64,000 nucleotides of DNA from Opitutia bacterium UBA7350 (GTDB taxonomy: Bacteria > Verrucomicrobiota > Verrucomicrobiia > Opitutales > Coraliomargaritaceae): assembly GCA_949524905.1 (NCBI GenBank), contig CATINC010000013.1, forward strand, positions 62,001-126,000, in the 5' to 3' direction. Each line of letters begins with the position of its first letter. Within the stretch, counting starts at the first letter, position 1. The notes under the pieces were generated by a model. It saw only the letters and a program-made list of their open reading frames with translations, was not told where the DNA came from and made no database searches. Below are positions 4,545 to 8,482 of the stretch, in pieces. The position numbers and the translations under genes were made by a program.

Positions 4545-6377
4545 GTGCCGCGAGTCGCTCAAAGCTCCATCGACGCCATGAAACACCAAGTGAACTTGGT
4601 GGACGTCATCTCTCCGTATGTGCAGCTCAAACGAGCCGGGCGTTCCTGGAAAGGACTCAGCCCATTTACTCAGGAAAAAACCCCCTCCTTCTATGTCCAC
4701 CCTGACCGCGGATTCTTTAAATGCTTCAGTACTGGCGAAGGTGGCGACCTCTTTAGCTTCGTCATGAAGATGGAAAACCTCGAATTTATCGAGGCTGTCG
4801 AATTCCTCGCCCAAAAATTTAATATCAACCTAGAATACGAAGCCGGAGGACCTTCAAAAAATGACCTCTCTCTACGCAAGCAAATCTTTGCCGTTAATGA
4901 CCTCGCAGCTAATTGGTTTCATCATCAATTCATCCATAGCGACGAAGCAGCACCGGTCCGCCAGTATTGGAATGATCAACGCGGCTTTGATAACGCCACA
5001 GCCGAAACGTATAAAGTCGGCTATGCTCCAGCAGCGCTCAACGCGCTCGCACTCCTTTGCCAAAAAAAGGAGATCTCGACTGAGGCGATGCACCAATCCG
5101 GCCTCTTTTATGCCTACGATAACGAAAAAGACCACCAGCGATTTAAATCTCGTTTTCGCGGCCGCCTTATGATTCCCATTCGCGACGTCCAAGGTCGTGT
5201 TGTCGCCTTTACTGCTCGGCAACTTCCCCAAACTCCTAAAGACGATCCCGCCCGAGAAGCCAAGTACGTAAACTCCCCGGAAACCCCCATCTTCAACAAA
5301 GGTCGCATCCTCTTTGGCATGGATCACGCCCGAAAACACCTTAAAGAAGACAGTAGCTTTCTCCTTGTCGAAGGACAACTCGATGCTATCCGCTGCTGGT
5401 CCGTTGGCCTCCATACCGCCATTGCACCTCAAGGTACCGCCCTAACCGAGCAACAACTCCACCTCCTGAGGCGCTACGATCCAAAGTCCGTCGAATGCCT
5501 CCTCGACGGCGATCGCGCCGGACGCAAAGCCGCCCTCCGCTCAGTTCCCCTAGCCCTAAAAGCAGATCTCGATTTTCATTTTCTTCTATTACCTGAAAAA
5601 ATGGACCCCGATGACCTGCTACGGGAACACGGCGCCGAGGGCCTCGATTCACTTCGCAAAGATGCCCTCAACGGCATTGAGCTCACCCTCAAGGAAACGC
5701 TACCAACGGATCGAGCACCCTCTACTCACGAAAAAACCGCCGCATTGCGTCAAGTTTTTGAACTACTGCAGCACATCCCTTCATTGGTTGCTCGCGAAGA
5801 TTACCTGAGCCAAGCTGCCCGCCAACTGCGAGTTGATCCCGAAGCCGCTCTGCGCGACTTTCGGAAATTTATCCCCAAAACATTGGCGAGCACCCCTCAA
5901 CCTGCTCCCAATGCAGAATCAAATTCAAGCGACAGGCTATTGACACAAGCCACCTGGGAATTACTTTGGCTCGTTTACCATCACACCGAATATGCTCAAG
6001 CCGTTGCAAATGCCACTGATTTTGAATGGCTCGACACTCAATCTCCTGCCGGTCGCATTTTGGGCCGCATCCTTGCTGAAATACAAGAAGGTCTCCTTGA
6101 TAATAACCAAGCTATAGAAAGTCTCCTCGATACAAACGAAGACCGTCAAATCCTTGCCGAAATCAGCCTACGCGAACTGGAAGTGGAACAACCTGCTCGT
6201 CAAATACATGATTGCCTTAAAACTGTGTTTCGTAATCACTTACAAAAGTTAAAACAGGAATTGGAACAAAAAGTTGCCAACATTGACCTTTCAGAGGAAA
6301 ACCGCCTACAACTTATGCGCAAAGTGCGCACTATTCGAGAAACTCTGAGTAAACCGATAGATTTTCAAATTAAATAA
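4545..6377 (+). CDS. dnaG: DNA primase, with degenerate zinc-binding domain
   Basis: A 610-residue primase that makes RNA primers for DNA replication. A GTG codon at 4545 gives the family-typical N-terminus (MPRVAQSSIDAMKHQVNLVD). The N-terminal CHC2 fold is recognisable (KGLSPFTQEKTPSF, GEGGDLFSFVMKMENLEF), but three of the four Zn ligands are changed: the C-H-C-C positions 39, 42, 60 and 63 read Ser, Thr, Cys, Thr. The catalytic TOPRIM core is intact, with LLVEGQLDA around residue 273 and LLDGDRAGRKAA around 320. The C-terminal 160 residues are the helicase-binding type region. It is followed 23 bases later by rpoD, matching the conserved dnaG-rpoD arrangement. Confidence 0.95.
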   Translation: MPRVAQSSIDAMKHQVNLVDVISPYVQLKRAGRSWKGLSPFTQEKTPSFYVHPDRGFFKCFSTGEGGDLFSFVMKMENLEFIEAVEFLAQKFNINLEYEAGGPSKNDLSLRKQIFAVNDLAANWFHHQFIHSDEAAPVRQYWNDQRGFDNATAETYKVGYAPAALNALALLCQKKEISTEAMHQSGLFYAYDNEKDHQRFKSRFRGRLMIPIRDVQGRVVAFTARQLPQTPKDDPAREAKYVNSPETPIFNKGRILFGMDHARKHLKEDSSFLLVEGQLDAIRCWSVGLHTAIAPQGTALTEQQLHLLRRYDPKSVECLLDGDRAGRKAALRSVPLALKADLDFHFLLLPEKMDPDDLLREHGAEGLDSLRKDALNGIELTLKETLPTDRAPSTHEKTAALRQVFELLQHIPSLVAREDYLSQAARQLRVDPEAALRDFRKFIPKTLASTPQPAPNAESNSSDRLLTQATWELLWLVYHHTEYAQAVANATDFEWLDTQSPAGRILGRILAEIQEGLLDNNQAIESLLDTNEDRQILAEISLRELEVEQPARQIHDCLKTVFRNHLQKLKQELEQKVANIDLSEENRLQLMRKVRTIRETLSKPIDFQIK

Positions 6378-6400: not shown

Positions 6401-8482
6401 ATGCCTGCCTCAAAAAAGAAAACAACTGCCAAGAAAACCCTCCGAAAGACTGTCAAAAAAACGGCTCGAAAGGTGACCCAAAAGGTAGCCCCTAAAAAAG
6501 CAGTTGCTCAGAAAAAAGCACCTGTGAAAAAAACTGCCAAAAAAGCCACTCCTGTAAAAGCAGTCGCTCAGAAAAAAGCACCTGTGAAAAAAACTGCCAA
6601 AAAAGCAGCCAACAAGAAAGTTTCCAAAAAAGCCACTCCTGTAAAAGCAGTCGCTCAGAAAAAGGCCCCCGCTAAAAAGGTCACTAAAAAGGCAGCCACG
6701 AAGAAGGCAGCCACAAAAAAAGCCTCTACAAAGGTGATTGAAGAAATCAGCGATGAGGCCATTGCCAGCATCAGCAAAAAACGCCGTCTCTCCCCCAAAG
6801 CTCAGGAAAAACTTAACGAACGCATACGCACCTTGATCCGGCTCTCCAAAGAACAAGGTTTTCTTACCTTCAAAGACATCAATAAATCACTGCCTGAAGG
6901 TGTGAATAATCCTGATGAAATTGAAAATGTCATCACCATTCTTCAAAACCTTGAAGTCGAAATCCTCGACGACAGCGAAGTTGAAAGTTTCAAAGCCCGC
7001 AAAGAGGAAACAGAAGAAAAAGAAGTTCGCAGCTCTCAGAATGACATTTTGGACGACCCTGTCCGCATGTACTTAAAACAAATGGGGCAAGTGCCTCTAC
7101 TCACCCGAGAAGAGGAAGTTGCTATCTCTAAACGCATTGAAAATGCCGAGCAACGCGCACAAGACGCTCTTTTTTCCACTGCCCTGACGCTAGAATTTCA
7201 AAACGATATTGTTCGGAAACTCCTCAATCGAGAGGAACGCTTTGATCGCGTTGTGCTTGATAAGAAAATTGATAGCCGCGAAACGTATTTCAACAGCTTA
7301 CCAAAACTGCTTGAACGCGCTCATGGACTGGGCGAGCGCATCTACTCCGCTTGGGACAGCCAAATAGAAGCCGCCAAGGCAAAGAAGGAAAGTAACCGCA
7401 AGCGTGCTTCCACCCGCATGAAGAAATATGAAAAGGAATTGCGCCTGACCCTTCGTAAATACTGCCTCAAATTAAAAATATTTGAAGATTTCCTTAAAGA
7501 CTTAAACCCCACCTACCGCGAACTCAAGGACCTCTATGATGACCTTGAAGCTGTCGGCAAAGTAACCACTCGCCGCCGCAAAAAAGTCAACGTTCCCGCT
7601 ATTGAAAAGAGACTCCAAGTAATCAAAACCGAGTTTAAAATAGAACCCCAAGAACTGATGGAGTTAATTCGCGAAGTGCGCCTAGGTATGCGGGAGGCAC
7701 ACAAGGCTAAAACCGAAATGGTCGAAGCAAATCTGCGCCTTGTTATTTCAATAGCAAAAAAATATACCAATCGTGGCCTCTCCTTCCTAGACCTTATCCA
7801 AGAAGGTAATATGGGTCTAATGAAAGCCGTTGAAAAATTTGAATATCGTCGCGGCTACAAGTTCTCGACCTATGCTACTTGGTGGATTCGCCAAGCAATT
7901 ACACGCTCCATTGCAGATCAAGCACGCACCATTCGAATTCCAGTGCACATGATCGAAACCCTAAACAAGGTCATGCAGGTTCAGAAACAACTCCTCCAAG
8001 AGTTGGGCCATGAACCCACTGCCGAGGAAGTTGCTGAAGAAATGAACCTGCCACTCGAGCGCGTTCAATCAATCATGAAGATGGCACAGCAACCCATTTC
8101 CCTACAAAGCCCTGTTGGCGATTCCGACGACACCAACTTTGGTGATTTTATAGAAGACAAAGGTGCAGAAAATCCATACGATATGACTGCTTACAGTCTT
8201 CTGAGAGAAAAAATTACCGATGTGCTCGACAGCCTTACGCCCCGTGAGCGCCGAGTGCTTTCACTTCGCTTCGGCTTAGTCGATGGTTACTCTCGCACCT
8301 TGGAAGAAGTGGGTCGTCAATTTAAAGTTACTCGAGAACGCATCCGCCAAATTGAAGCAAAAGCGCTTCGGAAAATGCGGCACCCTACTCGTATCCGTCA
8401 ACTGCACGGATTCTTTGAAGGCGATATCAATCTCGACAAACCCGGCATGGATAGTATTAAAAGAGATATCGGAAAAGAATAA
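6401..8482 (+). CDS. rpoD: Primary sigma factor RpoD with histone-like N-terminal tail
   Basis: A 693-residue housekeeping sigma-70. Residues 1-112 form a Lys/Ala/Pro tail resembling histone H1, with the segment VAQKKAP occurring three times (35, 55, 84). Region 1.1-like sequence follows (about 125-200), then region 1.2 ([20 protein letters not shown]), a non-conserved region with basic coiled coil (about 240-410), region 2 ([40 protein letters not shown]), region 3, and the region 4.2 helix-turn-helix ([20 protein letters not shown]). All promoter-contact regions look intact. Similar Lys/Ala-rich extensions are known on actinobacterial primary sigma factors such as HrdB; here it may add nonspecific DNA binding, which is an inference. 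Confidence 0.97.
6497..6700 (+). repeat. Direct repeats coding the RpoD lysine-rich tail
   Basis: Three copies of a DNA unit coding AVAQKKAP followed by Lys/Thr/Ala-rich spacer begin near 6500, 6560 and 6647. The first two are exactly 60 bases apart and nearly identical at the DNA level; the third is 87 bases further. The phase is kept at multiples of three, so copy-number change by slippage would not break the reading frame. Confidence 0.8.

Follow-up and report, generated by a model that had tools for sequence, protein, structure and literature searches.

The DNA primase (DnaG) encoded in the window, a 64,000-nucleotide stretch of contig CATINC010000013.1 from Opitutia bacterium UBA7350, lacks three of the four zinc ligands of its N-terminal CHC2 domain. 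Judged from alignments, this ligand loss is all-or-nothing and concerted, and is repeated in independent lineages. It is best explained, at a probability of roughly 0.75, by a working zinc-free template-recognition domain that would be stabilised by a polar Ser/Thr/Cys-or-Asp cluster at the former metal site.

The features of the gene are collected in Table 1. The window protein scored 392.3 bits with the replicative primase model TIGR01391 (cut-off 283.6), and CHC2, DNAG_N and Toprim domains as well as a weak DnaB-binding region were identified by using Pfam; a C-terminal RecA-like helicase domain was not found by Pfam, which gave DnaB_bind only. The catalytic acids E276, D280, D321 and D323 are invariant across the alignment, and the core superimposes on solved DnaG cores with Z scores of 31–35. 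The positions of the Cys-His-Cys-Cys ligands are occupied by S39, T42, C60 and T63; the codons AGC, ACT, TGC and ACT were read at the spacing C-x2-H-x17-C-x2-C, exactly as the initial annotation had described, and the motifs EKTPSF and GGDLFSFVM, which it listed as kept, are both in place. An alternative Cys/His set is absent from the domain, which supports the loss of the site, and no replacement Cys/His ligands are conserved within the zinc-less domain. By its sequence the protein is a DnaG in every respect but zinc binding. The downstream ORF, from its sequence, is presumably an rpoD-like sigma-70 factor gene; the dnaG-rpoD order is that of the classical macromolecular-synthesis operon.

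Table 1. Features of the dnaG region, in window coordinates.
Feature	Position	Strand	Evidence or remark
dnaG, DNA primase, 610 aa, GTG start	4545..6377	+	TIGR01391 392 bits; Pfam PF01807, PF08275, Toprim, DnaB_bind
N-terminal domain, residues 1-100, zinc-binding-domain fold (predicted) without zinc ligands	4545..4844	+	PF01807 111.8 bits; AlphaFold
Ser39 (AGC), replaces Cys ligand 1	4659..4661	+	
Thr42 (ACT), replaces His ligand 2	4668..4670	+	
EKTPSF, residues 44-49, conserved domain core	4674..4691	+	near-invariant in zinc-less and zinc-binding DnaG
Cys60 (TGC), sole retained ligand residue	4722..4724	+	Asp in some relatives
Ser62 (AGT), fourth co-switching site	4728..4730	+	Gly in nearly all zinc-binding DnaGs
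Thr63 (ACT), replaces Cys ligand 4	4731..4733	+	
Catalytic core, residues 109-430, RNA polymerase domain with Toprim, intact	4869..5834	+	
Gene taken to be an rpoD-like sigma-70 factor, directly downstream of dnaG	6401..8482	+	ORF translation

A sequencing or assembly artefact, or contamination, could be suspected in a source genome that is held in 17 contigs, but as an explanation of the ligand loss its probability is negligible, and it is already refuted by the DnaG of relatives. Sequencing error is excluded because the two other genomes of the genus carry the same four residues at the ligand positions, and the ligands are likewise gone in 82 Opitutales DnaGs from 27 families. A second, intact dnaG, which would have undone the initial annotation, was looked for and not found; the source genome (1.67 Mb, 17 contigs, 99.97 % complete) contains no second CHC2 protein.

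Alignment across Verrucomicrobiota, proposed initially as a check, placed the loss well beyond the source genome. The pattern S-T-C-S/T is present in both congeners and in the whole family of the source genome. Among the Opitutales families sampled only one, f13, is Cys-His-Cys-Cys, and all others are zinc-less; elsewhere in the class nine further families are zinc-less (f32, f35, f37, f39, f42, f46, f47, f56 and f59), and for one genome of f35 the match is to a named Candidatus Methylacidiphilaceae record (L268). The remaining families of the class are intact, as are 40 of the 40 DnaGs sampled from the phylum outside it. The ligand loss, first taken for a local oddity, is instead order-wide, and it recurs across phyla.

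This recurrence was followed by a DNA-pattern scan of GTDB contigs with the signature SPF-x-x-EKTPSF ... C-F-S-S/T, which returned at least 117 loci, most of them zinc-less with the same signature. The pattern requires C60 and S/T/C at positions 62-63 and misses Asp60 forms; frequencies were therefore taken solely from unpatterned draws. Among the matches listed, the signature occurs in Pelagibacteraceae, Rhizobiales, Flavobacteriales, Cytophagales, Chlorobi and Corynebacterium; by name they include Pelagibacteraceae, Ancylobacter, Methylobacterium, Microvirga, Bradyrhizobium, Parvibaculum, Chryseobacterium, Crocinitomix, Reichenbachiella, Chlorobium and several Corynebacterium, together with a Patescibacteria MAG and a contig labelled Marinimicrobia. 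All 17 named zinc-less genomes that were searched whole gave one full CHC2 match each. The unbiased draws yielded 9 zinc-less sequences from 73 hits in Alphaproteobacteria, 9 from about 48 in Bacteroidia and, Corynebacterium aside, none from about 47 in Actinobacteria.

The DnaG of the contig labelled Candidatus Marinimicrobia (L210, CANKHC010000185.1) groups with alphaproteobacterial sequences in the tree, which suggests a binning error in the MAG and a label that is perhaps wrong. Two actinobacterial dnaG genes (L463 in G419; L462 in G389) carry an intein-like insert with a LAGLIDADG match immediately before the zinc ligand Cys60 (context ...HCLAGE ... TGN|CFGC), so that the zinc cysteine serves at the extein junction; the reading frame continues through the insert in L463, and L462 ends at a contig edge.

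Zinc-less CHC2 proteins are not confined to replicative DnaG. Long mobile-type primases with open frames of roughly 800–1060 aa and the same signature (SPFT...HCMSSG) were found in four Opitutales genomes (L187, L189, L190 and L191, in G011, G017, G026 and G091), with up to seven near-identical copies in G091; G011 also has CHC2 proteins that are intact (L188, L194). Two short CHC2-type proteins (L193 in G058; L199 in G004) have a different zinc-less motif, SPFRxDxxPSF ... KDFATGESG(D/N), and none of the four ligands. Of 59 pattern-matching viral contigs from IMG/VR (L490-L548), 49 encode CHC2 primases of the zinc-less kind, many of them in frames of 1000 aa; by sequence, phage or prophage DNA also commonly carries the zinc-free form.

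The mode of loss was examined in 301 DnaGs drawn without regard to ligand state. All four ligands are kept in 188, one in 101 and none in 12, and in these 12 no more than a lone residue, if any, is left of the former thiol ligands; two or three ligands were found in none of the 301. In the patterned scan, two Lactobacillales sequences lack the His alone (L225, CQCC; L290, CVCC). The 113 zinc-less DnaGs of the unbiased draws have Ser at position 39 in all but one case (112/113), Ser or Thr at position 63 without exception (113/113) and Cys (100) or Asp (13) at position 60. The non-ligand position 62 is Ser in 111 of these 113 and Gly in 186 of the 188 intact sequences. The replacement set is thus C39S, H42T/N/S/K, G62S and C63S/T, with C60 retained or changed to Asp, whereas P40, F41, E44, S48, F49 and G67 are fixed in zinc-less DnaGs, and P47 in all but one. 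These four sites switch jointly in sister pairs on well-supported branches, of which about ten are independent (position 62 in nine of ten), and no other position of the domain comes close to switching comparably in these pairs. The residue pattern at 39, 60, 62 and 63, as aligned, is more than chance. In families f8 (L139, L140) and f20 (L143-L145) and in several Bacteroidia the last cysteine has also become Asp (SNDS/STDS), which leaves the former zinc site without a thiol.

In a tree inferred by a quick search from just the catalytic cores of 138 DnaGs there are at least 25 changes of zinc state, a count made inexact by the long branches of SAR11-like rows and by the quick search; the strongly supported branches alone force at least ten. 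Corynebacterium is nested within intact Actinobacteria with full support. The Ser39 codon is AGY in nearly all Opitutales versus mostly TCN in Alphaproteobacteria, and this codon use agrees with separate origins of the zinc-less forms. The direction of change was considered for Opitutales, in which LG trees nest the zinc-binding family f13 among zinc-free families. Under a mixture model the tree with a single loss exceeded the result of a short free search by 17 log units (p-AU 0.74); under LG+F+G4 it fell short by 35 log units (p-AU 0.07), with searches that had not converged. From the sequences, f13 may either have regained the site or have retained it, with one or several losses in the remainder of the order. 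The bolder proposal, that bacterial primase toggles between zinc-binding and zinc-free states through a four-site all-or-nothing switch with steps that can each be a single-base change, dozens of times and reversibly, with f13 as a regain, is offered tentatively and is rather doubtful.

The N-terminal CHC2 domain of the window protein is predicted to keep its four-stranded fold. The AlphaFold model has a mean pLDDT of 93 (91–97 over most of the domain) and matches the zinc domain of Bacillus stearothermophilus primase (1d0q) to 1.2 Å over 93 residues with Foldseek; a VIA superposition on the same domain gave Z 15.6 and 2.2 Å over 100. The alignment used for modelling contained zinc-binding relatives and may impose the zinc fold on the model, so the structural match is supportive and not decisive. 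At matched core divergence (core identity about 0.41, ligand sites excluded) the domain identity is 0.508 for zinc-less Opitutales and 0.511 for intact class members; relaxed constraint on the zinc-less domain was looked for and not seen in this comparison.

The metal of zinc-binding DnaGs joins the loop of residues 39-42 to that of residues 60-63. The zinc-free domain would close the same two knuckles by hydrogen bonds within a polar cluster, Ser39-x42-Cys/Asp60-Ser62-Ser/Thr63, in place of the metal; the replacing residues, for the most part small polar ones (Ser, Thr, Asn) around the retained Cys or an Asp, are those that such bonding would lead one to expect. So built, the domain would still hold single-stranded template in place at the RNA polymerase domain and contribute to the choice of start sites, and the driver would be relief from zinc dependence. 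An unchanged job is the simpler assumption, since the predicted fold, the invariant core PF-x-x-E-x-x-PSF and the constraint are unchanged. The loss of zinc may instead have altered template recognition, as the initial annotation suggested; the domain would then remain folded but accept another, or a less strict, start trinucleotide. The ligand loops of T7 and plant primases adjoin the template-contacting region, and point changes near them shift recognition of cryptic bases (PMC10557236); positions 42, 50, 62 and 63 do change with zinc loss. Against this stand the unchanged PF-x-x-E-x-x-PSF and G67, a constraint on the domain that is no weaker, and the free exchange of T, N, S and K at position 42, which is unlike a new base-specific contact; altered recognition thus seems unlikely, though it deserves serious weight.

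Other readings depart further from a working domain. Metal might still be bound through Cys60 (or Asp) with residues from elsewhere or from a partner, as just one ligand position keeps its residue, and this is one of two possible ligands (100 Cys and 13 Asp, n=113); the lack of any further conserved Cys or His in the domain, and the poor quality of Ser and Thr as zinc ligands, make this improbable. A vestigial domain, with priming that bypasses it, is more improbable again: three of four ligands are lost, and T7 primase without its domain still makes template-independent dinucleotides (review PMC6163395), but conservation equals that of intact domains over deep divergence, and the fold is predicted with confidence. 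Displacement of DnaG as main primase by another enzyme, for which TWINKLE is a precedent, is hard to credit when the catalytic residues are intact, the core is strongly constrained and the dnaG-rpoD order is retained, and when small SAR11-like genomes (1.3 Mb) that give one CHC2 match share the zinc-less state.

Zinc sparing may have driven the ligand loss. Ribosomal proteins L31 and L36 of the source genome are of the zinc-free type B, encoded by adjacent genes (G000:C17:87378-87756; L488, L489), and no other copies of either were found in this genome; RecR retains its Cys4. Type B L31/L36 together with an unchanged RecR fit selective sparing, as in the C+/C- ribosomal proteins (PMC3087516); sparing is not general here, because RecR keeps Cys4. 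As a hypothesis, zinc sparing leaves the wide habitat range of the zinc-less lineages unaccounted for.

A 2018 review describes high conservation of the DnaG zinc ligands and assigns template recognition to the zinc domain (PMC6163395), a picture that was drawn from zinc-binding enzymes. A literature search of partial coverage returned no description of a zinc-less DnaG, which is weak evidence. Zinc-free primases that occur naturally, in whole orders as well as in SAR11 relatives and Corynebacterium, supply matched pairs by which the role of the metal in the choice of priming sites could be isolated; they also bear on inhibitor designs aimed at the zinc domain, and set a replication protein beside the ribosomal proteins in bacterial zinc economy.

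The window DnaG shares domain order, fold, catalytic residues and gene neighbourhood with CHC2 DnaG (1d0q, 2au3; PF01807, TIGR01391), and differs in S39, T42 and T63 for ligands and in the co-switching G62S. The C+/C- ribosomal proteins L31, L36 and S4 (PMC3087516) are likewise zinc ribbons that have repeatedly lost a ligand set while fold and job were kept; joint loss is matched here by the absence of two- and three-ligand forms (0/301) and by the predicted fold. C+/C- proteins often exist as two paralogues or reflect horizontal gene transfer (PMC3087516), whereas zinc-less DnaG is a single replication gene: the source genome has one CHC2 gene, and no zinc-binding second copy was found in the genomes searched. 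The putative zinc-binding domain of bacterial glutamyl-tRNA synthetase is reported to be kept in many bacteria without the zinc motif, but belongs to another fold and another pathway (PMC4381286). Metazoan mitochondrial TWINKLE is also without three of the four CHC2-type zinc cysteines, and there the loss accompanies lost primase activity (PMC7231222), which weighs against a working zinc-free domain; unlike TWINKLE, the window DnaG has its catalytic residues intact and no other CHC2 primase beside it in the genome.
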